34,508 bases of DNA from Pseudomonadota bacterium (GTDB lineage Bacteria; Pseudomonadota; Gammaproteobacteria; Burkholderiales; Burkholderiaceae_C). Both the position numbers and the translations under genes were made by a program. A model generated the notes under the pieces. The model saw nothing but the letters and a program-made list of their open reading frames with translations. It was not told the DNA's origin and did not search any database. Shown here piece after piece: positions 2,364 to 31,563 of this stretch (the stretch's first letter is position 1; the number at the start of each line of letters is the position of its first letter). The DNA lies in NCBI GenBank assembly GCA_031119395.1, contig JAVHYA010000051.1, positions 1 through 34,508 on the forward strand. Reading direction: 5' to 3'.

Positions 2364-2938
2364 GGGAGTGCGTGTCCTTTTTGTTGTGTCTCGTCACTGG
2401 CCCGCAAGGGGCCCACGATGCACGGACGACGCAGCGAAACGACGGGAATTGCCGTTGCACTCCGGAGGCTGGGACTGGCGAGGGGCGCGAGCGCCGCCAC
2501 CGGTCCGGGGCGATCAGCCCTGCAGCCGCGGTGGTGGTGGCGCGAGGATGGGCGCGAGGCCGATGGGCTGCCGCGCTGCTATCTTTTTGATAGCTGGTTG
2601 CGCAACAACGACGGGCGTTGCGGGCGATTCAATGCCTGTATTCGCTGGGGTCAGCCAGCGCAGGCATATCTGAATCAGCCACATCAACACAAGGGCACTC
2701 GCTTCGATCCGCCGGCCAGCGCCTCGCAAAGGAGCGGGCGCGCTGGCTGGCTTGGGTATTCCGTGGTCCCAATGACTTGGGGTTTCGTTTGCGTCGGCTT
2801 GACTGCCTTGCCTGGCTTGCCACTTTGCGCTGGAGCGCGGGGTCTGCAAGCCGTGCAACGAAGTGGCATCGACCTCGCAGCGCCATCGTGGGGTGCTCTA
2901 AACTTCTCGCTTAATCAAGCACTTACACAACCGCGCTG
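2364..2938 (-). other. Long rne leader / rne-rluC divergent gap
   Basis: 575 bases with no gene I accept. Read on the minus strand it would be the rne 5' leader if the TATAAT at 2953-2948 is used. It carries one copy of the dispersed palindromic repeat (2578-2643). A minus-strand open frame (2858-2514) with a hydrophobic patch (LVLMWLIQICLRW) lies inside it but has no recognised family. E. coli rne is known to have a 361-base leader used for autoregulation; similar use here is inference. Confidence 0.4.
2578..2643 (+). repeat. Dispersed palindromic repeat, copy 1
   Basis: Core GCTATCTTTTTGATAGC (2578-2594) has a perfect 6-base stem. It is followed by a second hairpin CGCAAC/GTTGCG (2601-2622 area). 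Lies in the rne leader, so on the transcript it would be read as its complement. Confidence 0.7.
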
Positions 2939-4015
2939 GTGAAAAACATTATAGGTGCGAAGCCGCGGGCTGCGACGGGGAAAGTCCTTGCCGCCCCGTC
3001 GGCCCCGCCGGCCGAGGCGCGCATGCTCACCGTGGATGCGGAGTCCGCCGGCCAGCGGCTCGACAACTTCCTCTTCCGCCACTTGAAGGGCGTGCCCAAG
3101 ACGCACGTCTACCGCATCATCCGCTCGGGCGAGGTGCGCATCAACAAGGGCCGCGTGCAGGCCGATTCACGGGTGGAGGCGGGCGACACCGTGCGCCTGC
3201 CACCGGTTCGCGTCAGTGCGGCGCCGGCGGACGCGGTGCCCGCACCGGCGCGCAGCTTCGACCTGCTGCTGGAAGACGACGCGCTCATCGCGCTGGACAA
3301 GCCTGCCGGCACCGCCGTCCACGGCGGCAGCGGCGTGAGCTTCGGCGTCATCGAGCAACTGCGCGCCGCCCGGCCTGCCGCGCGCTTCCTCGAGCTGGTG
3401 CATCGGCTCGACCGTGAAACCTCGGGCGTGCTGCTGGTGGCCAAGAAGCGCAGCGCGCTCACCGCGCTGCAGGCCCAGTTCAAGAGCCGCGAAACCGGCA
3501 AGACCTACCTCGCGCTGGTCGAGGGCGACTGGCCGGCGCGCCTGAAGGTGCTCGATGCGCCGCTCGCGCGCTACCTGCTCCCCGGCAAGGACGGCCGGGC
3601 AGGCGAGGGCGAGCGGCGGGTGAAGGTGGTCGAGAAGGACCACCCCGACGCCATGCGCGCCGTCACGCTGGTGCGTGCGCTGGCACGCCTCACGCTTGCC
3701 GGCGACGCCGCGCCGATGACGCTGCTGGCCGTCACGATCAAGACCGGCCGCACCCACCAGATCCGCGTCCACCTCGCGTCGGCCGGACACCCGATCGCCG
3801 GCGACGACAAGTACGGCGACTTCGAACGCCGCCGCGCGCTGGCTCGCCTGGGCCTCAAGCGCATGTTCCTGCATGCCTGGCGGCTGCGTTTCACCCATCC
3901 GGCCACAGGCGAAGCCATGGCGCTGCAGGCGCCGCTGCCGCCCGAACTGGCCGACCTTCTCCCTGCAGCCGCGCGCGCTGCCCTGGACACCCATGACAAC
4001 AACGACAAGCCCTGA
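2939..4015 (+). CDS. rluC: 23S rRNA pseudouridine synthase RluC
   Basis: Isomerises uridines of 23S rRNA (955, 2504 and 2580 in E. coli). An S4 RNA-binding domain comes first (QRLDNFLFRHLKGVPKTHVY, about residues 40-100), then the RluA-type catalytic domain with HRLDRETSG, D158 being the catalytic aspartate, and KTGRTHQIRVH near the end. The GTG at 2939 gives 358 residues with a lead of about 30 residues before the S4 domain, as I expect for betaproteobacterial RluC. ATG at 3024 is the alternative and would trim that lead. No clear ribosome site precedes either. It sits divergent from rne, a pairing common in proteobacteria, and its 3' end overlaps the next gene by 23 bases. Confidence 0.92.
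   Translation: MKNIIGAKPRAATGKVLAAPSAPPAEARMLTVDAESAGQRLDNFLFRHLKGVPKTHVYRIIRSGEVRINKGRVQADSRVEAGDTVRLPPVRVSAAPADAVPAPARSFDLLLEDDALIALDKPAGTAVHGGSGVSFGVIEQLRAARPAARFLELVHRLDRETSGVLLVAKKRSALTALQAQFKSRETGKTYLALVEGDWPARLKVLDAPLARYLLPGKDGRAGEGERRVKVVEKDHPDAMRAVTLVRALARLTLAGDAAPMTLLAVTIKTGRTHQIRVHLASAGHPIAGDDKYGDFERRRALARLGLKRMFLHAWRLRFTHPATGEAMALQAPLPPELADLLPAAARAALDTHDNNDKP
2948..2953 (-). promoter_or_regulatory. Candidate -10 box for rne
   Basis: A perfect TATAAT on the minus strand, overlapping the first codons of rluC. The best -35 at 17-base spacing is GTCGCA (3 of 6), so it is weak. Transcription from about 2941 would give a leader of about 578 bases. Confidence 0.35.
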
Positions 4016-4676
4016 CGGCGCCCCGCGCCGCTTCGACCTCATCGCCTTCGATTGGGACGGAACGCTCTACGACTCCACCGCCGTCATCGTCCGGTGCATC
4101 CAGGCCGCGGTGGTCGACGTCGGCGGGCGCCTGCCCAGCGAGCGCGACGCCGCCTGGGTGATCGGCCTGGGCCTGGCCGAGGCGCTCGCCAAGGCGGCGC
4201 CCGACGTGCCGCCCGAGAAGTACCCCGAACTCGGCGCGCGCTACCGGCACCACTACCTGCGCCACCAGGACGACCTGGTGCTCTTCGATGGCACGCTGGC
4301 GATGATCGATGCCCTGCGTGCCCGTGGCCACAAGCTGGCGGTCGCCACCGGCAAGTCGCGCCGCGGCCTCGACCTGGCGCTGGAGACCGTGGCCCTGCGC
4401 GAGCGCTTCGACAGCTCGCGCACCGCCGACGAGACCTTCGGCAAACCGCACCCGCGCATGCTGCTCGAACTGATGGAGGAGCTCGAGGTGCCGCCCGAGC
4501 GCACGCTGATGATCGGCGACACCATCCACGACCTGCAGCTGGCCGCCAACGCCGGCTGCGCCAGCGTCGGCGTGAGCTATGGTGCGCACGAGCCCGCCAG
4601 CTTCGCCGACCACGCGCCGCTGCACGTGGCCCATTCCGTGCAGGACCTGCACGACTGGTTGATCCGGAACGCCTGA
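3993..4676 (+). CDS. HAD-family phosphatase, Gph-like
   Basis: 227-residue haloacid-dehalogenase hydrolase. Motif I is FDWDGTLYDS (nucleophile Asp and acid/base Asp), motif II VATGKSRRG, motif III the Lys in FGKPHP, motif IV MIGDTIHDL. A small helical cap lies between motifs I and II, as in phosphoglycolate phosphatase and related enzymes (HAD-IA). The start is ATG 3993, overlapping the rluC stop by 23 bases, which implies translational coupling. A HAD phosphatase directly after rluC is common in Burkholderiales. The substrate cannot be read from the sequence; phosphoglycolate or another small sugar phosphate is possible. Confidence 0.9.
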   Translation: MTTTTSPDGAPRRFDLIAFDWDGTLYDSTAVIVRCIQAAVVDVGGRLPSERDAAWVIGLGLAEALAKAAPDVPPEKYPELGARYRHHYLRHQDDLVLFDGTLAMIDALRARGHKLAVATGKSRRGLDLALETVALRERFDSSRTADETFGKPHPRMLLELMEELEVPPERTLMIGDTIHDLQLAANAGCASVGVSYGAHEPASFADHAPLHVAHSVQDLHDWLIRNA

Positions 4677-4689
4677 CCTTTCCTGCGCC

Positions 4690-5058
4690 ATGACGACCGA
4701 AGCGATTCCCCTGTGCAATTCCCGTGATCTCGTCGAAGGCGGCGAGGCGGTGTCCTTCGATGTCACGTACGGCGGCGAGAGCTGCCGCGCCTTCGCCATC
4801 CGTTTCGAGGGGCAGCCGCATGCCTACCTCAACCGCTGCACCCACGTGGCGATGGAGATGGACTACCAGCCCGACCGCTTCTTCGACGACACCGGCCAGT
4901 GGCTGCTGTGCGCTACGCATGGCGCCGCGTACCGCCCCGACACCGGCGAATGCGGCGGCGGTCCCTGCCGCGGCGGGCTGGTGAAAATCGAGCTCAGCGA
5001 GCGTGACGGCGTGGTGCACTGGCATACTGCCTGGAACCTGCAGCCCCTGCAGTTCTGA
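4690..5058 (+). CDS. Small Rieske [2Fe-2S] protein
   Basis: 122-residue single-domain Rieske ferredoxin-like protein. The cluster ligands are C50-T-H52 and C74-A-T-H77, the standard CxH and CxxH pairs. No transmembrane segment or signal peptide is seen, so it is probably cytoplasmic. It starts 13 bases after the HAD gene and is followed by sppA after 35 bases, forming rluC-HAD-Rieske-sppA on one strand. Known relatives act as small electron carriers or as ferredoxin parts of oxygenases, but no oxygenase is nearby, so the partner is unknown. Confidence 0.9.
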   Translation: MTTEAIPLCNSRDLVEGGEAVSFDVTYGGESCRAFAIRFEGQPHAYLNRCTHVAMEMDYQPDRFFDDTGQWLLCATHGAAYRPDTGECGGGPCRGGLVKIELSERDGVVHWHTAWNLQPLQF

Positions 5059-5093
5059 CCCGGGCCCGCCCCGTAGCCGCGCCCCTTTTCCCC

Positions 5094-6122
5094 ATGAGCA
5101 CCTCCGACCGGAAGGAACCTTCGGGTTTCGAACCTTTTGAGCCGCAAGCGCCGGACCTGGCGAGCCCCCCCGTGAACAAAGACCCCACTTCCTCGCCCGG
5201 CTGGGAGCGCGCGACGCTCGAGAAGCTGGCCTTCGCGTCCCTCAGGGAGCAGCGTGCCACGCGCCGCTGGAAGACCTTCGTGCGCCTGGGCTGGCTGCTC
5301 TTCTTCGTCGCGCTGGCCTGGCTGGCCTTCATGCGCGCCCAGCCCTCCACCGCCAAGACCACGGCCCACACGGCGGTGGTCGAGATCAAGGGCGAGATCG
5401 CCAGCGGTGCCGACGCCAGCGCCGAATTCGTCGTCGCCGCCATGAAGAGCGCCTTCGAGGACGAGGGCGCCAAGGGCGTGGTGCTGCTGATCAACTCGCC
5501 AGGCGGCAGCCCGGTGCAGGCCGGCATCATCAACGACGAGATCAAGCGCATGAAGGCCAAGTACAAGAAGCCGATCTACGCCGTGGTGGAGGAAAGCTGC
5601 GCCTCGGCCGCGTATTACATCGCCGCCGCCACCGACAAGATCTACGTCGACAAGGCCAGCCTGGTCGGCAGCATCGGCGTGCTGATGGACGGCTTCGGCT
5701 TCACCGGCACGATGGAAAAGCTCGGCGTCGAGCGGCGCCTGCTCACCTCGGGCGAGAACAAGGGCTTCCTCGACCCCTTCAGCCCGATGAGCGACGCGCA
5801 GAAGCAGCACGCGCAGCAGATGCTCGACCAGATCCACGCCCAGTTCATCGACGTGGTGAAGAAGGGCCGCGGCGAGCGCCTCAAGGCCGACACGCCGGGC
5901 CTGTTCAGCGGCCTGTTCTGGACCGGCCAGCAGGCCGTCGACCTGGGCCTGGCCGACCAGATGGGCAACGTCGACTACGTGGCGCGCGAGGTCATCAAGG
6001 CCGAGGACACCATCGACTACACCCGCCGCGACAACGTGGCGGAGCGCCTGGCCAAGAAGTTCGGCGCCGCCTTCGCCGACACCACGGTGCGCAGCATGCG
6101 CAGCACGCCGGCAGTCCGCTGA
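5094..6122 (+). CDS. sppA: S49-family signal peptide peptidase, SppA-like
   Basis: 342-residue membrane-anchored serine peptidase that degrades cleaved signal peptides at the inner membrane. The N-terminus is cytoplasmic and polar, followed by one transmembrane helix at about residues 62-80 (WLLFFVALAWLAFM). The catalytic Ser is S171 in SCASAAYYIA and the general-base Lys is K223 in SGENK; their spacing of 52 matches the short one-domain SppA of Bacillus (Ser147/Lys199), not the duplicated E. coli protein. The loop INSPGGSP is also typical. Start ATG 5094. A strong terminator follows 25 bases after the stop, making this the last gene of the rluC transcription unit. Confidence 0.92.
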   Translation: MSTSDRKEPSGFEPFEPQAPDLASPPVNKDPTSSPGWERATLEKLAFASLREQRATRRWKTFVRLGWLLFFVALAWLAFMRAQPSTAKTTAHTAVVEIKGEIASGADASAEFVVAAMKSAFEDEGAKGVVLLINSPGGSPVQAGIINDEIKRMKAKYKKPIYAVVEESCASAAYYIAAATDKIYVDKASLVGSIGVLMDGFGFTGTMEKLGVERRLLTSGENKGFLDPFSPMSDAQKQHAQQMLDQIHAQFIDVVKKGRGERLKADTPGLFSGLFWTGQQAVDLGLADQMGNVDYVAREVIKAEDTIDYTRRDNVAERLAKKFGAAFADTTVRSMRSTPAVR

Positions 6123-6147
6123 GCGAGCGTCGCGGCCTTCGCTTCAA

Positions 6148-6168
6148 CGGCGCTTCGGCGCCGTTTTT
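6148..6168 (+). terminator. Rho-independent terminator after sppA
   Basis: CGGCGC-TTCG-GCGCCG stem-loop with a stable UUCG tetraloop followed by five Ts, 25 bases after the sppA stop. Confidence 0.85.
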
Positions 6169-6191
6169 CATGGGCGCCGACGCCCGGCGTT

Positions 6192-6256
6192 GCTCACATT
6201 TCGATAGCTGCCCGCGCCCGTCCCCCGGGCGCGGGTGGCCGATATGGCCTGGAAAG
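6192..6256 (+). repeat. Dispersed palindromic repeat, copy 2
   Basis: Core GCTCACATTTCGATAGC (6192-6208), then a perfect second hairpin GCGCCCG-TCCCC-CGGGCGC and the tail GGCCGATATGGCC. Sits between the convergent ends of sppA and the MFS gene. Confidence 0.75.
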
Positions 6257-6261
6257 TCGGC

Positions 6262-7446
6262 TCAGTGGTCGCCGGCCGGGGCCGGCGCGCCCGCGCTGGC
6301 GGCGGCCCGCGGCGCCGCCACGGCCAGCGCCACGGCGAACACCACCACCACCGACAGCGCCGCCGTGAGCGAGCTCACCCGCGCCAGGAAGCCGATCATC
6401 GGCGGCCCCGCCATGAAGCCCAGGTAGGCCGCGGCCGAGACGGCGGCGATGCCGCGCGCCGCATCCACGCCCGGCACCCGCGCCGCCGCGGCGAACAGGA
6501 TCGGCACCACGTTGGCGAAGCCGATGCCCACGCCCGCGAAGCCCGCCAACGCGAGCCAGGGCGAATCGGTCAGCAGCACCCCGGCCATCGACAGCGCCGC
6601 CAGCGAGGCACTGGCGCGCAGCAGCGTCGCCGAGGCGAAGCGCGCGCGCAGGGCGTCGCCGCCGAAGCGCGCCGCCGCCATGGCGGCCGAGAAGCTCGCG
6701 TAGGCGAGGGCGGCCTGCTGCTGCGGGCTGCCGAGCTCCTGCTGCAGGTAGAGCACGCTCCAGTCGTACATCGCGCCCTCGGCCACCAGGCCCAGGGCGG
6801 CGAGGATGCCCAGGACGACCAGCGCCCCGCGCGGCAGGCGGAAGCCGCCCTCGGCCGGCGCCGTGCTGGCCGTGAAGCGACGCGGCAGCATCCAGCGCGT
6901 GCCGCCGGCCACGGCCACGGCCATGACGCCCGCGACCAGCGCCAGATGCCAGTTCGGCGGCAGGCCGGCCGCCAGGGCCGCACTGCCGCTCACCGCGCCG
7001 GCCATGCCGCCCAGGCTGAACATGCCGTGCATGCCGCTCATCAGGGGCCGGCCGCCGTGCAGTTCGAGCTGCGAAGCCTCGGTGTTGATGGCGACGTCGA
7101 ACACGCTGGTCACCAGGCCGAAGGCCGCCAGCAGCACCAGCAGGAAGGCGTACGACGGCATGTGGATCAGCAGCGCCACCAGCAGCGCGTACACGGTGCC
7201 GGTGACCAGCGCCATGCGCGCGGCGCCATGACGACCGATCCAGCTGCCCGCGCGGCTGATGCCGAGGAGCGCGCCGAAGCCGGCCGCCAGCAGGGCCAGC
7301 CCCAGTTCGGCCTCGTCGACGCCGTAGTGCGCCTTCACGGTGGGGATGTGCACGCCCCAGGTCGCAAAGATGAAGCCGGAGCAGAAGAACTGGGTGCGGG
7401 TGGCCCAGCGGGTGGGGGCGCTGCGGGCGAGGGTGGTGTCGGTCAA
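6262..7446 (-). CDS. MFS transporter
   Basis: 394-residue major facilitator with about twelve hydrophobic helices, for example LALLAAGFGALLGI, MALVTGTVYALLVALLI, FLLVLLAAFGLVTSVFDVA and ALSVVVVFAVALAVAA. The sequence SVFDVAINTEA and a glycine-rich GMHGMFSLGGMAG loop resemble the sugar/drug-efflux subgroup of uncharacterised MFS proteins. I chose TTG 7446-7444 (LTDTTLARSAP) because no ATG lies closer to the first helix. The next in-frame ATG, at 7668, would add 74 residues translated from two intergenic repeats and is unlikely. No strong ribosome site is seen. Substrate unknown. Confidence 0.8.
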   Translation of the reverse strand: MTDTTLARSAPTRWATRTQFFCSGFIFATWGVHIPTVKAHYGVDEAELGLALLAAGFGALLGISRAGSWIGRHGAARMALVTGTVYALLVALLIHMPSYAFLLVLLAAFGLVTSVFDVAINTEASQLELHGGRPLMSGMHGMFSLGGMAGAVSGSAALAAGLPPNWHLALVAGVMAVAVAGGTRWMLPRRFTASTAPAEGGFRLPRGALVVLGILAALGLVAEGAMYDWSVLYLQQELGSPQQQAALAYASFSAAMAAARFGGDALRARFASATLLRASASLAALSMAGVLLTDSPWLALAGFAGVGIGFANVVPILFAAAARVPGVDAARGIAAVSAAAYLGFMAGPPMIGFLARVSSLTAALSVVVVFAVALAVAAPRAAASAGAPAPAGDH

Positions 7447-7465
7447 GGGATGGGTCAGCGGAATT

Positions 7466-7531
7466 GCTCTCGAATTGATAGCGTGCCGCGCAAGTGGGGC
7501 TTGGGTTGGAAGCCGATCTGGCTCGAAATTC
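7466..7531 (+). repeat. Dispersed palindromic repeat, copy 3
   Basis: Core GCTCTCGAATTGATAGC (7466-7482). The second hairpin is degenerate (CGCGCAAG...GCTTGGG) and the tail GCCGATCTGGCTCGAAA is recognisable. Lies upstream of the MFS start. Confidence 0.65.
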
Positions 7532-7540
7532 GGGCTTCCG

Positions 7541-7637
7541 GACGCAGAAGCCGCAGAAGTCACGCAAGGGGCGCGGAAGAACACATTGTCGATGTCCCCT
7601 TTGACGCCTTTTGCGAAACCTTGGCGTCCGCTGCGTT
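7541..7637 (+). repeat. Large inverted repeat of CGCAGAAG-type units
   Basis: Left arm 7541-7580 and right arm 7598-7637 pair as inverted repeats; I count 25 of 40 identical positions, with a 17-base spacer. Each arm is itself a degenerate tandem of units of about 10 bases (GACGCAGAAG, CCGCAGAAG, CACGCAAGG, GCGCGGAAG). Lies in the 205-base gap between the methyltransferase stop and the MFS start. Confidence 0.7.
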
Positions 7638-7651
7638 TGGATGTCCCGAGT

Positions 7652-8413
7652 TCAGCGCCCGATGGCAAACACCGCCGGCAGCCGCTCCTCGGCCAGCGTG
7701 GGTGCGGCGCGCCAGGCCTTCACGCTCTGGCTGCGCACCTGCATCGCCGGCAGCGTCAGGCCGCTGGCCACCGCCAGGCGGGTGTGGTGCTGCAGCGTCT
7801 GGACCAGCGCCTGCAGCAGCGCGGCGTTGCGGTAGGGCGTTTCGATGAAGAGCTGGGTCTGGCCGGTGCGCAGCGCCAGCGATTCCAGTTCGCGGATGCG
7901 CGTGCGGCGTGCCTCGGCGTCCTGCGGCAGGTAGCCGACGAAGGCGAAGTTCTGCCCGTTGAGCCCGCTGGCCGCCAGGGTGAGCAGCAGCGAAACCGGT
8001 CCGACCAGCGGCACCACCGCCGCGCCGATCTCGTGGGCCGCGCGCACCACCGAAGAACCCGGGTCGGCCACCGCAGGCATGCCGGCCTCGCTCAGCAGGC
8101 CCATGTCGTGGCCTTCGCGCAGCGGCGCGAGCAGGGCCGCGATGGCCGCCGGGGCGGGCGCGCCGTCATGGTCGCCCTTCTTGTGCACCTCTCGCGGCAG
8201 CTCCTGGATCGACATCGACTGCAGCGGCGCGGCCAGCGGCACCACGGCGTCGATGCGCTTGAGGTACGCGCGGGCGGACTTCGCGTTCTCGCACACCCAG
8301 TGCGTGAGCCGCGCGGCGGCCTGCAGCGTGCCCAGGGGCAGGGCGTCCTGCAGGGGCGCCTGCACCTCGCAGCCGAAGTCGAGCGGGGCGGGAACGAGGT
8401 AGAGCGTGGGCAT
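7652..8413 (-). CDS. SAM-dependent methyltransferase, RsmI-like (tetrapyrrole methylase fold)
   Basis: 253-residue member of the TP-methylase superfamily. Seen motifs are the N-terminal strand MPTLYLVPAPLD, the LLSEAGMPAVADPGSSVVR block (RsmI proper has LISDAGTPLISDPG) and the GPVSLLLTLAASGL segment that shapes the SAM pocket. RsmI 2'-O-methylates C1402 of 16S rRNA, but this protein is a divergent paralogue of the kind found next to maf in Burkholderiales, so its target is uncertain. Start ATG 8413; a longer frame to 8458 would be translated from a repeat. Same strand as maf, 75 bases downstream, with repeat copy 4 between. Confidence 0.82.
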   Translation of the reverse strand: MPTLYLVPAPLDFGCEVQAPLQDALPLGTLQAAARLTHWVCENAKSARAYLKRIDAVVPLAAPLQSMSIQELPREVHKKGDHDGAPAPAAIAALLAPLREGHDMGLLSEAGMPAVADPGSSVVRAAHEIGAAVVPLVGPVSLLLTLAASGLNGQNFAFVGYLPQDAEARRTRIRELESLALRTGQTQLFIETPYRNAALLQALVQTLQHHTRLAVASGLTLPAMQVRSQSVKAWRAAPTLAEERLPAVFAIGR

Positions 8414-8423
8414 GGGGGCGGTT

Positions 8424-8488
8424 GCTATCGATTCAGGAGCTGCCGGCGCCCGCTCCATGGGCGTTGGCGGCCGGTTTGATTCAGAAGG
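8424..8488 (+). repeat. Dispersed palindromic repeat, copy 4
   Basis: Core GCTATCGATTCAGGAGC (8424-8440), then GGCGCCCG/GGGCGTTGG hairpin and the tail GGCCGGTTTGATTCAGAA. Fills nearly all of the gap between maf and the methyltransferase gene. Confidence 0.75.
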
Positions 8489-9070
8489 TCAGAGCAGGTC
8501 CACGCCCGCGGCGCGCAGCATGCGGCAGGTGCGGATCAGCGGCAGGCCGACGAGGGCCGTCGGGTCGTCGCTGTCGATGGCTTCGAGCAGCGCGATGCCC
8601 AGCCCTTCGCTCTTGGCGCTGCCGGCGCAGTCGTAGGGCTGCTCGGCCCGCAGGTAGTGTTCGATGGCTGCGTCGCTCAGGTCGCGGAACACCACGCGCA
8701 CCGGCGCGATGTCCTGCTGCACGAAGCCGGTGGCATGGCAGACCACGGCCACGGCGGTCTGGAAGATCAGCGTCTGGCCGCGCATGCGGCGCAGTTGCGC
8801 GGTGGCGCGGTCGTGGTCGCCGGGCTTGCCCAGCGGCTCGCCGTCCAGGTCGGCCACCTGGTCCGAGCCGATCACCACGCTGTCCGGAAAGCGGGCCGCC
8901 ACGGCATGCGCCTTGGCCAGCGCCAGGCGCACGGCCAGATCGGCCGGCGCTTCGCCCGGCTGCGGGGTCTCGTCGACCTCGGGGGCCTGGACGTCGAAGG
9001 GCAGGCGCAGGCGCGACATCAGGTCGCGCCGATAGCGGGAGGTGGAACCGAGGATGACGGGGCGCTGCAT
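8489..9070 (-). CDS. yceF: Maf/YceF nucleotide pyrophosphatase
   Basis: 193-residue Maf-family pyrophosphatase that hydrolyses non-canonical nucleotides; the YceF subgroup prefers 7-methyl-GTP. Seen are the phosphate-binding GSTSRYRR at the N-terminus, EVDET, IGSDQV with the catalytic Asp, GKPG, and CAGSAKSEGLGIALLEAI. The CAGS.KSEG.GI signature and the LVGLPLI ending fit E. coli YceF rather than the dTTP-type YhdE. Start ATG 9070. It diverges from yceD over a 35-base gap, the arrangement known from E. coli, where yceF is divergent from yceD-rpmF. Confidence 0.93.
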   Translation of the reverse strand: MQRPVILGSTSRYRRDLMSRLRLPFDVQAPEVDETPQPGEAPADLAVRLALAKAHAVAARFPDSVVIGSDQVADLDGEPLGKPGDHDRATAQLRRMRGQTLIFQTAVAVVCHATGFVQQDIAPVRVVFRDLSDAAIEHYLRAEQPYDCAGSAKSEGLGIALLEAIDSDDPTALVGLPLIRTCRMLRAAGVDLL

Positions 9071-9105
9071 GTGGGCGATTGTCGGTGCCGCGTAGACTGT
9101 CGCAG

Positions 9106-9660
9106 ATGAAGAAGGATTTCGATGCCGGCCGCCTCGACGTGCCGGCCTTCGCCCAGGCGGGTGCCACCCTGGAGGCGGCCGAGCCGTTGTCGGCCTATCG
9201 CCGCCTGCTGGCCGAATCGGCCGTGGCGCACGCCGCGCCCGAGGTTCGCTGGACGGCTTCGGGTGAGCTGCGTACCGCCACGGGCGGACCGGCCGTCCCG
9301 TGGCTACGCCTGGACGCGGCGGTGACGCTGCCGCTCGTCTGCCAGCGCTGCCTGCAGCCCGTCGACACGCCGCTGCGGGCCGACCGCTGGTTCCGCTTCG
9401 TCGCCGACGAGGAGACCGCCGCGCTGGAAGACGAGGAGGCCGAGGAGGACGTGCTGGTCAGCAGCCACGATTTCGACCTGCGCGAGCTGGTCGAGGACGA
9501 GCTGCTGATGGACATCCCCTTCGCCCCCGTGCACGAGGTCTGTCCGGCGCCGGTTCGCATGTCCGCCGCCGATCCGGACTTCGACGCCGCCGGCCAGGAG
9601 CGCCCGAACCCTTTCGCGGCGCTGGAAGCCCTCAAGAAGAAGCCCGCCGATGGGGGCTGA
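9106..9660 (+). CDS. yceD: YceD / DUF177 protein (23S rRNA accumulation protein)
   Basis: 184-residue DUF177 protein. The family is needed for normal 23S rRNA levels and is nearly always encoded just before rpmF, as here. Features are the central Cys pair LVCQRCLQP, a very acidic segment (ALEDEEAEEDVLV), and DLRELVEDELLMDIPFAP followed by a third Cys (VHEVCPAP). I chose ATG 9106 (MKKDFDAGRL) over the GTG-type extension to 9079, which runs into the maf promoter region. No Shine-Dalgarno sequence is visible. Function in detail is unknown. Confidence 0.88.
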   Translation: MKKDFDAGRLDVPAFAQAGATLEAAEPLSAYRRLLAESAVAHAAPEVRWTASGELRTATGGPAVPWLRLDAAVTLPLVCQRCLQPVDTPLRADRWFRFVADEETAALEDEEAEEDVLVSSHDFDLRELVEDELLMDIPFAPVHEVCPAPVRMSAADPDFDAAGQERPNPFAALEALKKKPADGG

Positions 9661-9693
9661 GGCGGGGGCTGGCGCGGCCCGGCCCCGGCGGGC

Positions 9694-9699
9694 TATAAT
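9694..9699 (+). promoter_or_regulatory. Candidate -10 box for rpmF
   Basis: Perfect TATAAT in the context CGGGCTATAATCG, 34 bases after yceD. No good -35 at 16-18 bases. Would give a leader of about 165 bases for rpmF. Confidence 0.5.
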
Positions 9700-9786
9700 C
9701 GTGGGCTACGCGCGCGCTTGCCGATCTGGTCGATGACCTGGATCGCCGACCGAGGAGTGCGATCCGAAGGGATCCGCGCACCCGGC

Positions 9787-9839
9787 GGCAGTGGCAGGCG
9801 ATGCCGGCTTCGCAAGCCCCAGGCGCCGGCCGCACTGCC
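9787..9839 (+). promoter_or_regulatory. Structured leader hairpin of rpmF
   Basis: Outer stem GGCAGTG (9787-9793) with CACTGCC (9833-9839) and inner stem GCCGGC (9803-9808) with GCCGGC (9825-9830), ending about 30 bases before the rpmF start. Role unknown; could be a leader structure for regulation or processing. Confidence 0.4.
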
Positions 9840-9870
9840 CACTCACCTTACCGTCTATTCAGGAGCCATC

Positions 9871-10053
9871 ATGGCCGTTCAGCAAAACAAGAAGTCGCCC
9901 TCGAAGCGCGGCATGCACCGCTCGCACAACGCCCTGGGCGTGCCCGGCATCGCCGTCGAGCCCACCACCGGCGAAACGCACCTGCGTCACCACATCAGCC
10001 CCAACGGTTTCTACCGTGGCCGCAAGGTGCTGAAGACCAAGTCCGAAGCCTGA
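9871..10053 (+). CDS. rpmF: 50S ribosomal protein L32
   Basis: 60-residue bL32 of the large ribosomal subunit. The N-terminus [20 protein letters not shown] is the L32 signature. There is no zinc-ribbon Cys set, so this is the zinc-free form usual in proteobacteria. An AGGAG ribosome site lies 7 bases before ATG 9871. Basic, Lys/Arg rich. It stands between yceD and plsX as in most proteobacteria, with its own candidate promoter and terminator. Confidence 0.97.
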
Positions 10054-10070
10054 GTTGCTCTTTCAAGGCC

Positions 10071-10113
10071 AAGGCCCGAAGCTACTGAATCCGTAGCGTC
10101 GGGCCTTTGTTTT
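10071..10113 (+). terminator. rpmF terminator built on the repeat core
   Basis: Long stem AAGGCCCGA (10071-10079) with TCGGGCCTT (10099-10107), continued by GCTAC/GTAGC with a 7-base loop, then TTGTTTT. The inner 17 bases, GCTACTGAATCCGTAGC (10081-10097), equal the core of the dispersed repeat. The T-tract ends just before the plsX ATG. Confidence 0.8.
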
Positions 10114-10114
10114 G

Positions 10115-11218
10115 ATGCCCTCGACTTCCTCTTTTTCGAGCGCCTCCCCGCCGTCGGCCATCACCGTGGCCGTGGACTGCATGGGCGGCGACCATGGTCC
10201 CCGCGTCACGCTCGCGGCCTGTCGCGCCTTCCTGGAGCGCCACGCCGACGCGTCGCTGCTGCTCGTGGGTGCGCCCGCGGCGCTGGCGTCCTTCAGCCAT
10301 CCGCGGGGCCGGGTCATTCCGGCCACCGAGGTGGTCGGCATGGACGACCCGATCGAGATCGCCCTGCGCAAGAAGAAGGATTCGTCCATGCGTGTGGCGA
10401 TCCAGCAGGTCAAGGATGGCGCGGCGCATGCGGCGGTCTCGGCAGGCAACACCGGCGCGCTGATGGCGATCGCCCGCTACCTGCTCAAGACGCTGGACGG
10501 CATCGACCGCCCGGCCATTGCCCCCCAGTTGCCCAACAGCAAGGGCGGCGCCACCACCGTGCTCGACCTGGGCGCGAACGTGGATTGCGACGCCGAGGAC
10601 CTGCTCCAGTTCGCCGTGCTGGGGTCGGCGCTGGTGTCGGCGCTCACGGGCAACGAGTCCCCCAGCGTGGGCTTGCTGAACGTGGGTGAAGAAGCCATCA
10701 AAGGCAGCGAAACCATCAAGAAAGCGAGTCAACTGCTCCAAAAAGCGGCCAACTCGCAAGATCTGAACTTCTACGGCAACGTCGAGGGCAACGACATCTT
10801 CAAGGGCACCACGGACATCGTGGTGTGCGACGGCTTCGTCGGCAACGTGGCGCTCAAGGCCACCGAGGGGGTGGCGTCGATGATTGTCGACTTCATGCGC
10901 CAGGAGTTTTCGCGGGGCATCTTCAGCAAACTTGCGGCCATCGTGGCCTATCCGGTGCTAAAAGCCTTGAAAGGTCGGCTCGACCATCGGCGCTACAACG
11001 GGGCGGCGCTGCTCGGGCTGCGCGGGCTCGTCTTCAAGAGCCACGGGTCGGCCGACGAGGAGGCGTTCGGGCATGCGCTGGATCGCGCTTATGATGCCGC
11101 TCGCAACAACCTGCTCGACCGAGTGCGTGCCCGCATCGCCCATGCCGCACCGCTCTTGGCCCGCACCGACGCTGCTTTCGCGGTGTCGGCCGAGGCCCCG
11201 GTCGTGATCCACGCCTGA
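10115..11218 (+). CDS. plsX: Phosphate acyltransferase PlsX
   Basis: 367-residue enzyme converting acyl-ACP to acyl-phosphate, the acyl donor for PlsY in phospholipid synthesis; membrane-associated. The family start [11 protein letters not shown] lies at residues 18-28, then [21 protein letters not shown] and [12 protein letters not shown]. The chosen ATG 10115 adds about 15 Ser/Pro-rich residues before the usual start; a GTG inside AITVAVD is the alternative. The ATG is immediately after the rpmF terminator T-tract and has no Shine-Dalgarno sequence, so expression probably relies on read-through. The stop overlaps the fabH start (TGATG). Confidence 0.93.
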
Positions 11219-12195
11219 TGACCCTTTACTCCCGCATCACCGGCACGGGCAGCTACCTGCCACCGCGCCGGGTGACGAACGACGATCTGGCCCGTCAGCT
11301 GGCCGACCGCGGCATCGAGACCTCCGACCAGTGGATCATCGAGCGCACCGGCATCCGGGCACGCCATTTCGCCGAGCCCGAGGTGACCAGCAGCGACCTC
11401 GCCCTGCATGCCTGCCGGCACGCGCTGGAGGCGTCCGGGCGCAGCGCGCAGGACGTGGACCTCATCATCGTCGCGACCTCGACGCCCGACATGGTCTTCC
11501 CCTCGTCGGCCGCCATCCTGCAGCACAAGCTTGGCATCGCCGGCTGCCCGGCGTTCGACGTGCAGGCGGTGTGCAGCGGCTTCGTGTATGCGCTCACGGT
11601 GGCCGACGCGATGATCCGCACCGGCGGCGCCAAGTGCGCGCTGGTCGTCGGTGCCGAGGTCTTCTCGCGCATCCTGGACTTCAACGACCGCACGACCTGC
11701 GTGCTCTTCGGCGACGGCGCCGGGGCCGTGGTGCTGGAGGCCAGCGACACGCCCGGCATCCTGGCCAGCGACCTGCATGCCGACGGTTCGCACGTCGGCA
11801 TCCTGTGCGTGCCGGGGAACGTCTCGGGCGGCCAGGTGCTCGGCACGCCGCTGCTGCGCATGGATGGCCAAGCCGTCTTCAAGCTCGCGGTGCGCGTGCT
11901 CGAGGATGCCGCCCGTGCCACGCTGGCCAAGGCCGGCAAGGTCGATGCCGACATCGACTGGCTCATCCCGCACCAGGCCAACATCCGCATCATGCAGGGC
12001 ACGGCCAAGAAGCTGAAACTGCCGCTGGACAAGCTCATCGTCACCGTCGACGAGCACGGCAACACCTCCGCGGCGTCCATTCCCCTGGCGCTCGACGCCG
12101 CCGTGCGCGGCGGCAAGGTCAAGAAGGGCGACACGCTCATGCTCGAGGGCGTGGGCGGCGGCTTCACCTGGGGCGCGGTGCTATTGAATCTGTAG
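11218..12195 (+). CDS. fabH: 3-oxoacyl-ACP synthase III (KAS III)
   Basis: 325-residue condensing enzyme that joins acetyl-CoA and malonyl-ACP to start fatty-acid synthesis. The triad is visible: C119 in AVCSGF, H252 in IPHQAN and N282 in [11 protein letters not shown]; the C-terminal [11 protein letters not shown] is typical. Start ATG 11218 overlaps the plsX stop, so the two are coupled. The last codons (LLNL) and the TAG stop fall inside repeat copy 6, so the natural C-terminus may have been replaced or trimmed. Confidence 0.96.
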
Positions 12196-12244
12196 CAGCT
12201 TGCGCCCGCTGGACGGGCGCTGCGGCTCGATTGGAGACACAAAC
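12180..12244 (+). repeat. Dispersed palindromic repeat, copy 6 (fabH stop)
   Basis: Core GCTATTGAATCTGTAGC (12180-12196), then the perfect hairpin GCGCCCG-CTGGA-CGGGCGC and the tail GGCTCGATTGGAGACAC. It contains the fabH TAG stop at 12193-12195 and, in its tail, the GGAG ribosome site of fabD. Confidence 0.8.
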
Positions 12245-12245
12245 G

Positions 12246-13196
12246 ATGAAGACCTTCGCATTCGTCTTTCCCGGGCAGGGTTCGCAGGCCGTGGGCATGC
12301 TGGACGCCTGGGGCGACCATCCCGCCGTGCGCGACACCCTGGCCGAGGCCTCCGAAGCGCTGGGCGAGGACGTGGCGAAGCTGATCCACGAAGGACCGAA
12401 GGAGGCGCTGGCGCTCACCACCAACACCCAGCCCGTGATGCTGGTGGCGGGCGTTGCCGCCTGGCGCGCCTGGCTGGCCGAAGGCGGTGCACAGCCGGCC
12501 GTCGTGGCGGGCCATTCGCTGGGCGAGTACTCGGCGCTGGTCGCTGCCGATGTGCTCACGCTCGCGCAAGCCGCGCCGCTGGTGCGCTTCCGCGCGCAGG
12601 CCATGCAGGAGGCGGTGCCGGTCGGCGTCGGTGCCATGGCCGCGATCCTCGGCATGGAATCCGCCAAGGTCATTGCCGGCTGCGCCGAGGTGTCGGCCGG
12701 CTTCCCGGCGGGCAGCGGCGAAGTGGTCGAAGCCGTGAACTTCAACGACCCGGTGCAGACCGTGATCGCCGGCAGCAAGGCGGCGGTCGAGAAGGCCTGC
12801 GAACTGCTCAAGGCCAACGGCGCCAAGCGCGCGCTGCCGCTGCCGGTGTCGGCGCCTTTCCATTCCAGCCTGATGAAGCCTGCGGCCGAAGCGCTCAAGG
12901 GCCGCTTGGCCGACGTGGAACTGCGCGCGCCGGCCATCCCGGTGCTGAACAACATCGATGTCGCCGTCGAAAGCGACCCGGCGCGCATCCGCGACGCCCT
13001 CGTGCGGCAGGCGGCCGGTCCGGTGCGCTGGGTCGAGAGCGTGCAGGCGCTCCAGGCACGCGGCGTCCAGGCGATCGTCGAGTGCGGCCCGGGCAAGGTC
13101 CTGTCCGGCATGGTCAAGCGCATTGCGCCCGAAGTGGGGAACGGCGCCATCTACGACCCGGCCTCGCTGGCCGATGCCAAGCAAGTGCTGGCCTGA
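12246..13196 (+). CDS. fabD: Malonyl-CoA:ACP transacylase
   Basis: 316-residue enzyme that loads malonate from CoA onto ACP. FVFPGQGSQAVGM at the N-terminus, nucleophile S91 in GHSLGEYSAL and catalytic H206 in SAPFHSSLM (E. coli Ser92 and His201), NFNDPVQTVIAG in between, and ECGPGKVLSGM near the end. Start ATG 12246, preceded by a GGAG that belongs to the repeat between fabH and fabD. Length is normal. Confidence 0.96.
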   Translation: MKTFAFVFPGQGSQAVGMLDAWGDHPAVRDTLAEASEALGEDVAKLIHEGPKEALALTTNTQPVMLVAGVAAWRAWLAEGGAQPAVVAGHSLGEYSALVAADVLTLAQAAPLVRFRAQAMQEAVPVGVGAMAAILGMESAKVIAGCAEVSAGFPAGSGEVVEAVNFNDPVQTVIAGSKAAVEKACELLKANGAKRALPLPVSAPFHSSLMKPAAEALKGRLADVELRAPAIPVLNNIDVAVESDPARIRDALVRQAAGPVRWVESVQALQARGVQAIVECGPGKVLSGMVKRIAPEVGNGAIYDPASLADAKQVLA

Positions 13197-24739: not shown

Positions 24740-24747
24740 AGACCCGA

Positions 24748-25785
24748 ATGACCACCGATCCCAATTCCAACGCTATCGATTCCGTAGCGCCTTCCGCAGG
24801 CACCACGGGCGCCGCAGCCCCAAAAGGCCTCCAAAGCCCGGACGCGGGCGCTGTCCGCCGCTGCGGCCTGGTCGCCATTGTGGGCAAGCCCAACGTGGGC
24901 AAGTCCACGCTGCTGAACGCGCTCGTCGGCCAGAAGATCAGCATCACCTCGCGCAAGGCCCAGACCACGCGCCACCGCATCACGGGCATCCGCACGGTGC
25001 CCACGCCCGACGGCGGCGGCGCGCAGTTCGTCTTCGTCGACACGCCGGGCTTCCAGACCCGCCATGCCAACGCCCTCAACCGCTCGCTCAACAAGACCGT
25101 GCTGGGCGCGGTGGCCGACGTCGACCTGATCCTGTTCGTGGTCGAGGCGGGGCGGTTTGCGCCGGCCGATGCGAAGGTGCTGTCGCTGCTGGGCAAGAAC
25201 ATCCCGGTGCTGCTGATCGCCAACAAGCTCGACACGGTCCACCGCCGGGCCGACATCGCGCCCTGGCTGGCCCAGATGCAGGCCGACAACGCGGGCGAGG
25301 GCGGCGAGCGCTTCGCCGAGTTCGTGCCGATGTCGGCCAAGAACGCCAAGGACATCGAGCGGCTCATCGGCATCTGCGAGAAATACCTGCCCGAGCAGCC
25401 GTGGTGGTACGACGAGGACGAACTGACCGACCGCAGCGAGAAGTTCCTCGCCAGCGAGACGGTGCGCGAGAAGCTGTTCCGGCTCACCGGCGACGAGCTG
25501 CCCTACACCTCCACGGTGGTCATCGACAAGTTCGAGGAAGAGCCGCCGCAGAAGAAGGGCCAGAAACGCCTGATGCGCATTGCCGCCACCATCGTGGTCG
25601 AGCGCGACGGTCACAAGGCGATGGTGATCGGCGACAAGGGCGAGCGCATCAAGCGCATCGGCACCGAGACGCGCCAGGAGCTGGAAAGACTCATGGACGC
25701 CAAGGTGTTCATCGAGCTGTGGGTCAAGGTGCGCTCCGGCTGGGCCGACGACGAGGCACGCGTCAAGTCCTTCGGCTATGAGTGA
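24748..25785 (+). CDS. era: GTPase Era
   Basis: 345-residue GTPase needed for 16S rRNA maturation and 30S assembly. G1 GKPNVGKS (46-53), G2 region [12 protein letters not shown]3 DTPG, G4 NKLD, then the C-terminal KH domain ([15 protein letters not shown]). E. coli Era has 301 residues; the excess is an Ala/Pro/Ser-rich N-terminal extension of about 38 residues, of which residues 9-31 are translated from repeat copy 8. Start ATG 24748; an in-frame TTG at 24736 overlaps the rnc stop (TTGA) and would add four residues. The following gene overlaps its end by 8 bases. Confidence 0.95.
24772..24838 (+). repeat. Dispersed palindromic repeat, copy 8 (inside era)
   Basis: Core GCTATCGATTCCGTAGC (24772-24788), then CCGCAGGCACCACGGGCGCC and the tail CCCCAAAAGGCCTCCAAAG. 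In frame with era, encoding residues 9-31. Confidence 0.7.
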
Positions 25786-26446: not shown

Positions 26447-26447
26447 C

Positions 26448-28056: not shown

Positions 28057-28067
28057 GAGCACGCGCC

Positions 28068-28466
28068 TTGGTCCACGGCATCGGCACCGACATCTGCGAC
28101 ATCCGGCGCATCGCCGCCACCTTCGAACGCCAGGGCGAGCGCTTCGCCGAGCGCGTGCTGGGCGACGCCGAACTGGCCGTCTGGCGGGCCCGCAGCGCCC
28201 GCTGGCCCAAGCGCGGCCTGCGCTACCTGGCGACGCGCTTTTCCGCCAAGGAGGCGTTCAGCAAGGCGATCGGCCTGGGCATGCGCATGCCCATGGCGTG
28301 GCGACTGTGCGAGATCCTCAACGAACCCAGCGGCAAGCCCCGCATCGTGCTGCACGACCCGCTCAGGAGCTGGTTCGAGGCGCAGGGACTGACGGCCCAT
28401 GTGACCGTCACCGACGAGACCGATTACGCCGCCAGCTTCGTGGTGGTCGAAAAGAAGAACCCCTGA
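28068..28466 (+). CDS. acpS: Holo-ACP synthase
   Basis: 132-residue enzyme that transfers 4'-phosphopantetheine from CoA to the serine of ACP (acpP at 14065). [13 protein letters not shown] carries the metal-binding Asp; [15 protein letters not shown] has the second conserved acidic site. Start is TTG 28068 (LVHGIGTD), because no ATG or GTG occurs in frame between the pdxJ stop and the motif. Stop followed one base later by the nagZ ATG. Confidence 0.94.
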
Positions 28467-28467
28467 G

Positions 28468-29616
28468 ATGGCCGACTCCCTTCACCGTCCCCTCGTCATC
28501 GACGTCGCGGGCACCACCCTCACGGCCGACGATCGCCGGCGCCTCGCGCATCCGTGGGTCGGCGGCGTCATCCACTTCGCACGCAACTGGGAAAGCCGCG
28601 CGCAGATGACGGCGCTCAATGCCGAGATCAAGTCGATCAACCCGCACGTGCTGATCTGCGTGGACCACGAGGGCGGGCGCGTGCAGCGCTTTCGCACCGA
28701 CGGCTTCACGCGCCTGCCCTCGATGCGCATGCTGGGCGAACGCTGGATGCGCGATCCGATGGAAGCCACGCAAGTGGCCACTGCGGTGGGCTTCGTCCTG
28801 GCGAGCGAACTGCGCGCCGTCGGCGTCGACTTCAGCTTCGCGCCGGTGCTCGACCTGGACCATGAAGCTGAGCCCCCCACGCAAGCACCGCCGCCTGCGC
28901 GCCCCCGCGGGGCGCCGGCTGGTTCGGGGCGGGCCGGCTCCAGCCGCAGCAGCGTCATCGGCGACCGCAGCTTCCACCGCGACCCGCGCGTGGTGGCGCT
29001 GCTGGCCAAGAGCGTCATGCATGGCATGCTGCAGGCTGGCATGTCCAACTGCGGCAAGCATTTTCCGGGGCATGGTTTCGTCGAGGCCGATTCGCATGTC
29101 GCGATCCCGGTCGATCGCCGCAGCCTCAAGGCGATTCTGGCCGACGACGCGCGGCCTTTCGAATGGTTGGCCGGCACGCTCGGCGCGGTGATGCCGGCGC
29201 ACGTGATCTATTCGCGCGTCGATGCGCGGCCCGCGGGCTTCTCGGCCAAGTGGCTGCAGGACATCCTGCGCGGCCGGCTGGGTTTCCAGGGGGCGATCTT
29301 CAGCGACGACCTCAGCATGGAGGCGGGGCGCCACATCGATGGCCGGTTGCTGAGCTACACGGACGCCGCGCTGGCGGCGCTGTCGGCCGGATGCGACCTG
29401 GCCATGCTGTGCAACCAGAGCGTCGGCAACGGTGCGCCGCTGGACGAATTGCTGGAGGGTTTCGCGCGCGCGGCCCGCTTGGGCGCATGGAACGCATCGG
29501 CGGCCGGCGAGCGCCGGCGGCGCTCGCTTTTTCCCGTGCGCGAGTCATCGGGATGGGCGGCACTGGCGACCGATCCCGCGTACGCCCGCTGTTCGAGCTT
29601 GCTCTCGATTTTGTAG
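28468..29616 (+). CDS. nagZ: Beta-N-acetylhexosaminidase NagZ with in-frame insertion
   Basis: 382-residue GH3 cytoplasmic enzyme that removes GlcNAc from muropeptides during wall recycling. VDHEGGRVQRF, IGDRSFHRDP, GKHFPGHGFVEADSH (K197, H198) and FSDDLSMEA are all present, so the active site looks intact. Between FAPVLDLD and SVIGDRS the protein carries about 26 extra Pro/Ala/Arg/Gly-rich residues (133-158); removing bases 28865-28942 restores a continuous HGRSSVIGDR. This accounts for much of the excess over E. coli NagZ (341). The TAG stop lies in repeat copy 9. Activity is likely but not certain. Confidence 0.9.
   Translation: MADSLHRPLVIDVAGTTLTADDRRRLAHPWVGGVIHFARNWESRAQMTALNAEIKSINPHVLICVDHEGGRVQRFRTDGFTRLPSMRMLGERWMRDPMEATQVATAVGFVLASELRAVGVDFSFAPVLDLDHEAEPPTQAPPPARPRGAPAGSGRAGSSRSSVIGDRSFHRDPRVVALLAKSVMHGMLQAGMSNCGKHFPGHGFVEADSHVAIPVDRRSLKAILADDARPFEWLAGTLGAVMPAHVIYSRVDARPAGFSAKWLQDILRGRLGFQGAIFSDDLSMEAGRHIDGRLLSYTDAALAALSAGCDLAMLCNQSVGNGAPLDELLEGFARAARLGAWNASAAGERRRRSLFPVRESSGWAALATDPAYARCSSLLSIL
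28865..28942 (+). repeat. 78-base GC-rich insertion inside nagZ
   Basis: Exactly 26 codons between CATG and GCCGCAGC. Begins AAGCTGAGCCCCCCACGC, contains the perfect hairpin GCGCCCC-CGC-GGGGCGC and ends GGGCCGGCTCCA. Looks like a mobile intergenic-type repeat that landed in frame. Confidence 0.6.
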
Positions 29617-29658
29617 CGCCTCACGCTTGCCGGGTGGGCGCTCTAGCCCGATTGGAGC
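29601..29658 (+). repeat. Dispersed palindromic repeat, copy 9 (nagZ stop)
   Basis: Core GCTCTCGATTTTGTAGC (29601-29617), then CACGCTTGCCGGGTGGGCGC and the tail GCCCGATTGGAGCC. Supplies the nagZ TAG stop at 29614-29616. Confidence 0.7.
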
Positions 29659-29916
29659 CATGAAGCCGGGGCCCGAGCACGCCGGCCTCAGGGGTGGCGT
29701 TCCGGGCTGGGCCGCAGCGGCAGCTCGGGGCGGGCGGCAAGGAAGCGGGCGACATCCTCTTCGCCGAGGCGCTGAACTCTCAGCCCCAGGTCTGGCAACC
29801 CGGGAAGCGCTGGCGCAGCGCATGGCCCACGCCGCACTCCGGCCACGGGTTGAACGGGCAGTCGTACGCTCGCTGGTCCCGGTCCTGCCGGAGAAACCGC
29901 GCCGTGGCGCCGCCGT
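29617..29916. other. Gap between convergent nagZ and lysS
   Basis: 300 bases. The first 42 are the rest of repeat copy 9. I see no T-rich terminator for either gene. On the minus strand a 46-codon frame (29920-29780) begins with a CTG overlapping the lysS stop and encodes a Cys/Trp/Pro motif DCPFNPWPECGVGHALRQRF; it has no recognised family and no ordinary start codon. Confidence 0.4.
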
Positions 29917-31440: not shown

Positions 31441-31484
31441 GAAGAAGAAGGAAAACAGAAAGGGGGCGCAAGGGGCAGCCGCGC

Positions 31485-31490
31485 ATTTTA
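31485..31490 (-). promoter_or_regulatory. Candidate -10 box for lysS
   Basis: TAAAAT on the minus strand with TTTGCC as a weak -35 at 16 bases; the -35 falls in the tail of repeat copy 10. Predicts a leader of about 38 bases. Confidence 0.4.
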
Positions 31491-31498
31491 GCTGTGCG

Positions 31499-31563
31499 GG
31501 TTCGAAGGCAAATCGGCCGCTCGCGCCCGCGGGACGGGCGCAATGCGCTATGAAAAAAGGAGC
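31499..31563 (-). repeat. Dispersed palindromic repeat, copy 10
   Basis: On the minus strand: core GCTCCTTTTTTCATAGC (31563-31547), then GCGCCCG-TCCCG-CGGGCGC and the tail GGCCGATTTGCCTTCGAA. Begins one base after the LON-domain gene stop and runs in that gene's direction. Confidence 0.75.

Follow-up and report, generated by a model that had tools for sequence, protein, structure and literature searches.

The window analysed here, a 34.5-kb stretch of DNA (34,508 nucleotides of contig JAVHYA010000051.1), comes from a Xenophilus genome (Comamonadaceae; 5.14 Mb, 69% G+C; hereafter G000) and contains nine copies, seven on the plus and two on the minus strand, of a dispersed element of about 66 nt. 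The element consists of a 17-nt core with the inverted tags GCTAY and RTAGC, a hairpin (the second stem) and a tail, GGCCGATTTGGCTTGAA. A sequence-only reading of the window had proposed ten sites with a GCTAY-N7-RTAGC core, followed in most by a second stem-loop and a tail at constant spacing, in both orientations and with a length of about 65 bases. The stem-loop, tail, spacing, length and two orientations were all borne out, with perfect GCGCCCG-N5-CGGGCGC second stems in the copies at 6192, 12180 and 31563, and the list of sites and the strictness of the core had to be revised. The core is exact at five of the ten listed sites (2578, 10081, 12180, 15793 and 24772); the others require mismatches, and 6192 fits solely with two. 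With one mismatch allowed, the pattern occurred 10 times in the window against 0.95 expected, a number reached by none of 100 shuffles, and with two mismatches it was not clearly above chance (32 against 24.2 expected; 8 of 100 shuffles reached 32). A covariance model trained on eight window copies (R1) scored these at 53.8–67.5 bits and recovered a ninth from outside the training set, at 15749–15812 on the minus strand (32.1 bits), whose core is the listed site 15793. The remaining site, a core-like palindrome at 10081–10097, was rejected as a copy, since it has the core only and scores 9.6 bits with R1; by eye it seems embedded in a larger, terminator-like palindrome, a hairpin with T-rich sequence behind it, and a terminator scan did not flag it. 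No Rfam RNA family reached its gathering score in the window.

The copies lie in varied surroundings. On the plus strand, a weaker copy at 2575–2640 (R1 53.8 bits) occupies the same site in five congeners (G126, G128, G071, G125 and G120), and a copy with a perfect second stem (6189–6254, 67.0 bits) lies between convergent S49 peptidase and MFS genes. The copy at 7463–7528 (57.8 bits) is common to G126 and G128, with no intact copy at that site in G071, G125 or G120, and that at 8421–8486 (67.5 bits) lies between two minus-strand genes. At 12177–12242 (65.2 bits) the core supplies the last codons and the TAG stop of fabH, upstream of fabD (Pfam ACP_syn_III_C and Acyl_transf_1, respectively), and at 29598–29663 (58.9 bits) a glycosyl hydrolase 3 gene (28468–29616) stops on the TAG of the element. 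The copy at 24769–24834 (56.1 bits) lies, by translation, in frame within the N-terminal extension of an Era GTPase (Pfam MMR_HSR1 and KH_2), a place called intergenic by our gene finder, which set the Era start further downstream; about 22 in-frame residues of this extension derive from the element, and the segment is variable in element-free congeners. On the minus strand, one copy (31501–31566, 64.3 bits) directly follows a LON-substrate-binding-domain gene (31565–32173, minus), and the weaker ninth copy, with a full extent of 15747–15812, scores 38.7 bits with R2, a second model built from 79 copies of the own genome. It lies inside an open reading frame (15687–16178), at a spot that the gene finder likewise called intergenic.

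Covariance-model searches confirmed that these copies belong to a true dispersed family. All of the 150 candidates scored in G000 matched R1 at an E-value of 1.1e-10 or better over all 64 positions, giving at least 150 copies, and twenty 20-kb stretches of the genome (400 kb) held 47 matches at E<=1e-5, from which a total of about 600 is extrapolated. The core pattern occurred 53 times in 380 kb against 6.2 expected. Conservation extends from about position 2 to position 66 and falls to background by position 67 (45 of 48 copies aligned), and the flank upstream of the core was at background, with no conservation there in the 45 copies. The consensus of 79 copies is gTTGCTATCGATTtGATAGCTGCTcGCGCAcGCcGGGCGGGCGCTGCAGGCCGATTTGGCTcGg, then AA, with the second stem beginning about 6 nt past the TAG. 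That the sites are chance palindromes of a 69% G+C genome, linked by eye, has a probability of practically nil: the two-mismatch matches and the loss of 10081 from the list would suit such an artefact, and it is already refuted by the counts, by the unbroken match of the 150 candidates and by seven congeneric genomes that serve as negatives. The family is thus real, abundant and sharply bounded, and it is mostly intergenic and shows no strand bias relative to genes. A different dispersed repeat was seen at L061:6939–7041 (G000:C8, about 116939–117041); it spans about 110 bp, its inverted arms of 46 nt are 83% complementary, and it has dozens of matches among those listed in G071 and others in congeners.

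The expectation that the stems are kept held for one of the two. Within the window copies, covariation did not exceed that of shuffles, and among 79 copies of G000 neither stem covaried; the upper pairs of the second stem are mismatched in about half of the copies (39/77 and 36/77 at two pairs). The core arms draw independently on one small set of sequences (GCTATC, GCTATG, GCTACG, GCTCCT and others), and the two arms match in 22 of 79 copies against 26.6 expected. Across genera, a set of 60 copies from 14 stretches in eleven other genera, compared with shuffles that leave relatedness in, revealed two-sided changes in six of seven pairs of the second stem and in none of the five core pairs. 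The second stem had 27 two-sided cells against 12.1 in shuffles and a covariation score of 0.164 against 0.102, neither reached by any of 500 shuffles, together with 20 further pair types against 16.0 (reached by 15 of 500); the best slid control had a score of 0.085 and 16 two-sided cells. The bare number of second-stem pairs with two-sided changes, six, did not exceed the shuffles, 285 of 500 of which reached it. The stem consensus is GCGCTTG/CAAGCGC in the other genera, against GCGCCCG/CGGGCGC in well-paired Xenophilus copies. The hairpin therefore acts as structure, and the core, which shows no base-pair covariation and so no sign of base-pair selection, is a conserved pair of inverted sequence motifs. 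The sequence-only reading had named a lack of covariation as grounds for giving up its proposal; such a lack was found for the core and within the own genome, and not for the hairpin across genera.

Gene context was assessed with a home-made gene finder in 414.5 kb holding 57 copies. Left out was a stretch of 56% G+C (L068, G000:C62:1–20000) that has no element match and is perhaps foreign DNA. A total of 44 copies were intergenic and 13 lay in predicted genes, some possibly false. Density was highest between convergent genes (12 copies in 4.4 kb), followed by tandem gaps (28 in 25.7 kb), and lowest between divergent genes (4 in 11.3 kb), and five predicted genes, two of them in the window (fabH and glycosyl hydrolase 3), end on the core TAG at an end offset of 19. 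Enrichment between convergent genes and scarcity between divergent ones would be expected of a host-function site under selection, bound by a nucleoid or replication protein or acting as an mRNA 3'-end stabiliser or terminator, as would the retention of sites across congeners and a terminator-like site at 8439–8471 within one of the four copies in the scanned stretch 6000–12400. We consider such a function an unlikely, if serious, alternative, given that the copies in tandem gaps show no strand preference (13 on the same strand as the genes, 15 opposite, n=28), that the 13 copies in predicted coding sequence fit it poorly, that the terminator scan was overall at chance (4 against 2.9) and that folding energy was ordinary in many of the 16 copies folded (z from -4.1 to +0.3). 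The family is, moreover, without any match in seven of 15 Xenophilus genomes.

The sequence-only reading had noted that no transposase is present, which holds for the window only. Elsewhere G000 has a single gene of the repetitive extragenic palindrome (REP)-associated tyrosine transposase (RAYT) type (PF01797; G000:C15:39144–39839), located between a methyltransferase gene and gltB, upstream of the latter; a similar gltB start follows the RAYT gene in 20 genomes of the family (judged by eye; L039:3945–8127). The protein has 231 aa with the motifs NHFH, WEGR and YIDLNPVRAG, and matches PF01797 (Y1_Tnp) at E 1.5e-11, above the cut-off of that model, with no other Pfam match; its match to NCBIfam REP_Tyr_transpos (NF047646; 1.1e-19, 70.7 bits) is below the 80-bit cut-off. 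An orthologue with 95% identity, modelled with AlphaFold2 at a mean pLDDT of 86.9, has extra helices past residue 140, and the best structural match of this model in the PDB is 4er8, TnpA_REP with a REP hairpin (E 3.8e-8). Searches with the RAYT sequence against the PDB and against phage families returned no match. The gene is framed by terminal repeats, GGGGTCAG and GGGGACAC/T, of the GGGGWSAS type. At the 3' repeat, GTCCC is present in 20 of 20 family loci and TCNGACCC in 19 of 20; the 5' repeat GGGTCRGA occurs in 13 of the 20 loci and in none of 15 Xenophilus. Judged by its length, motifs, C-terminal helices and terminal repeats, the predicted protein fits subclass 2.1 (TIRYT). The search for a RAYT in carrier genomes that the sequence-only reading had suggested found one in nearly all genomes with R1 matches.

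Similar elements in other Comamonadaceae had been suggested in that reading, and R1 did match in 34 of 120 family genomes, the own included (44 candidates scored per genome; match at E<=1e-6). A survey of the order with R2 found matches in at least 7 of 300 genomes, five of them of the same family including the own (17 candidates per genome, strict filters). Three matches lay in other families of the order (L238 and L245 in G257, L239 in G246); one of these genomes is 78% complete and misbinning is possible. Among the 15 Xenophilus genomes, R1 matches numbered at least 150 in five (150 of 150 scored), 46 in G120, four and one in two further genomes and zero in seven, and we refer to the first six as element-rich and the other nine as element-poor. 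Of 12 named genomes searched with R2, two X. aerolatus had at least 150 copies (150 of 150 scored) and 103, and Xenophilus sp. L33 had 2; in Acidovorax the counts were 138 of 150 scored for A. defluvii, whose record carries the mark UNVERIFIED_CONTAM, and 58 for A. soli, and two Extensimonas genomes had 66 and 64. In 179.5 kb of element-poor genomes the core pattern was somewhat above expectation (9 against 3.0). G121 and G122 lack the copy at 8421, with identities of 0.00 and 0.03 over the element and 0.86 in the near flanks, and G122 retains the 3' half of the copy at 2575, which indicates that some element-poor genomes carry remnants.

The RAYT locus differs between the two groups. A reversed element starts at the stop codon of the G000 RAYT gene and abuts the GGGGWSAS terminal repeat; in element-rich Xenophilus the complement of the RAYT 3' flank reads GGGGTCAGATTC...GGGGACACATCAAATTTGATAGC...GGCCGATTTGGC...RAYT stop, whereas element-poor congeners have the same terminal repeats at their RAYT without the element. 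The G000 copy is in family register, GATAGC being separated from GATTCG by 32 nt both here and in the consensus, and scores 20.4 bits with R1. With R2, the copy directly 3' of RAYT scores 47.0 bits in G128 (where the alignment contains an insertion of some 43 nt), 32.6 in G126 and 25.0 in G000; the matches in G071 and G125, two nearly identical assemblies from the same strain, are weak, at 13.4 bits each (E 0.02). R2 found no RAYT-end copy in G120, nor at that place in the nine element-poor genomes, so that by this model three of six rich genomes have a clear copy, two a weak one, and none of nine poor genomes has any. The core pattern stands beside the terminal repeat in six of six rich and one of nine poor genomes, the one being G122, which has four R1 matches. 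RAYT itself is present in all 15, being 90–100% identical in the rich six, and it varies much inside the genus, with 59–68% identity to the nine element-poor congeners. Within Xenophilus, then, the RAYT-linked copy goes with the abundant family.

G120, in which the RAYT-end copy is degenerate, has only 46 of 150 R1 matches (its X. aerolatus counterpart, 103 of 150 with R2). At ten shared sites, with orthologues paired by eye and 7463 and 29598 excluded as unshared, the G120 copies scored below the mean of the other congeners available. Identity to G000 over the element is 0.73 in G120, 0.79 in G071 and 0.82 in G128, with near flanks at 0.85, 0.875 and 0.85, respectively. G120 stands beside the outgroup in one of two tree loci, and its family may therefore have decayed or may have been less built up.

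Outside Xenophilus, the pattern GCT-N8..15-GTCCC was found at RAYT in 13 of 20 element-bearing family genomes (0.3 in shuffles) and in 63 of 76 genome_contigs loci (1.5 in shuffles), and its presence in so many loci makes a tag beside the terminal repeat a widespread part of the RAYT unit. That a tag abuts this repeat in many genera, and with similar spacing, speaks against a pure host function, for which the copy at RAYT would be merely another site; that the models usually do not see this copy outside Xenophilus speaks for it. At least two R1 matches were present in 21 of 42 genomes with a RAYT of 60% identity or more, against 7 of 78 others (Fisher 1.6e-6, uncorrected for phylogeny). An element directly upstream of RAYT was found by R1 in G010 alone among 20 loci, and flanking by two inverted REPs was not seen. 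The G010 element is complete (L043:3895–3958; 38.7 bits with R1, 44.8 with R2) and resembles one side of a classic REPtron. At L120 (G031), an element-like sequence by RAYT has, by eye, a left arm of the dispersed type (CTAT) in place of the terminal repeat. A dispersed Variovorax family, suggested by the RAYT tag of that genus, was considered and rejected: the core occurred once against 5.8 expected in 418 kb of flanks of the 76 genome_contigs RAYT loci, mainly Variovorax, and R2 counts in four Variovorax genomes, given below, also speak against it.

We propose that the elements form a non-autonomous, REP-like family which the TIRYT-type RAYT disperses or maintains, a reading to which we assign a probability of roughly 0.6. 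The RAYT would recognise RTAG and the hairpin as single-stranded DNA, by analogy with E. coli TnpA_REP, would cut beside the tag and would insert or copy the element at further sites, for the most part close to the ends of genes. The RAYT-linked copy may serve as source or reference copy, and loss of the link would let the family decay. Movement of the element by RAYT is inferred, as the best explanation.

A number of observations weigh against this proposal. With RAYT relatives in 114 of 120 genomes of the family, presence alone explains little, and the element-rich six group apart from six of the poor genomes in the tree, which brings the contrast within the genus close to a single evolutionary event. 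The 13.4-bit matches in G071 and G125 do not exceed the stray matches, of up to 14.0 bits, that element-poor genomes show on the opposite side of RAYT. Most tested copies are common to several congeners and therefore old, and the sites compared in congeners gave no sign of a recent insertion or excision or of a target duplication, nor did they yield a clean empty site with such a duplication. Beyond Xenophilus, the core pattern at RAYT is also present in 5 of 12 R1-negative genomes of L093–L120 (G054, G061, G008, G050 and G018), so that, with 13 of 20 on the other side, it does not tell carriers of the element from genomes without it. At the RAYT 3' end, R1 recognised a complete element in one of 20 family loci, the own one, and R2 did so in none of 11 other loci with filters off and in one of 80 genome_contigs RAYT loci, the Xenophilus-clade ALPHA2B; Xenophilus copies served as the training set of both models, and sensitivity in other genera may be lower as a result. 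Abundance and RAYT also part company in single genomes: G095 has 19 R1 matches with a mere 42%-identical RAYT relative, G040 (74% complete) has 15 with no RAYT found, and at the RAYT of G009 (37 matches) and of G088 (38) the core pattern is absent. Although the tag stands at most Variovorax RAYTs, copies counted with R2 numbered 9, 6 and 0 in three genomes of this genus and 0 in V. dokdonensis, and Giesbergeria anulus had 0. Finally, the tetranucleotide at the RTAG position is ATAG in 60 of 79 copies and GTAG in 18.

Two further explanations were considered. Sharp ends, abundance and inverted tags would equally suit a miniature element of another transposon, of DDE or unknown type, that came to lie beside RAYT by chance in an ancestor. 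This origin is very improbable in our judgement, as the consensus has no apparent terminal inverted repeats, target duplications were not observed, the copy at the G000 RAYT is in register with the family and, in Xenophilus, genomes without the family are also without a copy at this place. The other explanation is rewriting in place, in which a tamed RAYT would keep the family alive by restoring or imposing the element on existing DNA, in addition to inserting it, with the copy at its own 3' end or other copies as template. The idea is based on the lower G120 scores at the ten shared sites and on three places where a copy or its core aligns with coding sequence of element-free relatives, namely the fabH end, an open reading frame at L061:14955 (core only) and 15747–15812. 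The G000 fabH ends VLLNL-stop on the core (12177–12196) in AT-rich synonymous codons, and several element-free congeners keep a similar peptide in G/C-rich codons. Convergence may account for the alignment at all three sites, and we regard rewriting as quite improbable. Under the proposal of dispersal or maintenance by RAYT, the hundreds of copies, the linked copy and the contrast within one genus make the element a candidate substrate, so that the role of tamed transposases becomes testable in soil and water bacteria, and a repeat that ends genes and encodes protein tails gains an annotation.

In the literature searched (open-licence papers only) we found no description of this element family. 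Among the closest known systems is the betaproteobacterial repeat element BRE, which the available text of PMC3110155 describes as dispersed, mostly intergenic and also in coding sequence, and as reported in Comamonadaceae; it is 75–91 bp long in Bordetella, often tandem, with at most 29 copies. Both repeats are dispersed and mostly intergenic, and they differ, by the published description, in length and tandem habit. Like a REPIN, the Xenophilus element is miniature, non-autonomous and RAYT-linked; a REPIN-like mirrored second hairpin sharing the core was looked for and discarded, since there were low-scoring opposite-strand matches only and no upstream conservation. GTAG-REPs are portrayed, in the accessible parts of PMC2817692 and PMC3733652, as short tagged hairpins that number in the hundreds and lie for the most part close to gene 3' ends; they adjoin an HUH tyrosine transposase gene, and their abundance is said to follow the cognate gene. 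Our element resembles such GTAG-REP/TnpA_REP REPtrons of Pseudomonas, Stenotrophomonas and E. coli as a tagged hairpin in hundreds of copies that stands beside a RAYT and mostly near gene 3' ends. By contrast, it has mostly ATAG as its tag, an inverted tag pair on one side of the hairpin, a fixed tail and a length of about 66 nt; one copy at the RAYT 3' end is the rule instead of two inverted REPs, and the RAYT scores under the NCBIfam cut-off for REP-RAYTs. Measured against GTAG-REPs, for which PMC6006769 gives a GTAG-type tetranucleotide 0–2 nt 5' of a hairpin, it agrees in having a structured hairpin (across genera), high copy number and extragenic location, and departs from it in tag and spacing, with mostly ATAG and a stem about 6 nt past the TAG. 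The same paper gives subclass 2.1 proteins as 238 aa with NH[YF]H, W[EQ] and Y..LNP motifs, to which the Xenophilus RAYT is close with its 231 aa, NHFH, WE and YIDLNP, C-terminal helices and GGGGWSAS terminal inverted repeats, as in TIRYT/TnpA_Y1. Moderately abundant terminal inverted repeat families are mentioned in the part of PMC3733652 available, and the Xenophilus element differs from them, as far as that part describes them, in not being the terminal repeat itself. According to the survey in PMC6006769, REP-like sequences were not found in the vicinity of subclass 2.1 genes, whereas the Xenophilus RAYT has a REP-like family of hundreds of copies attached to it.

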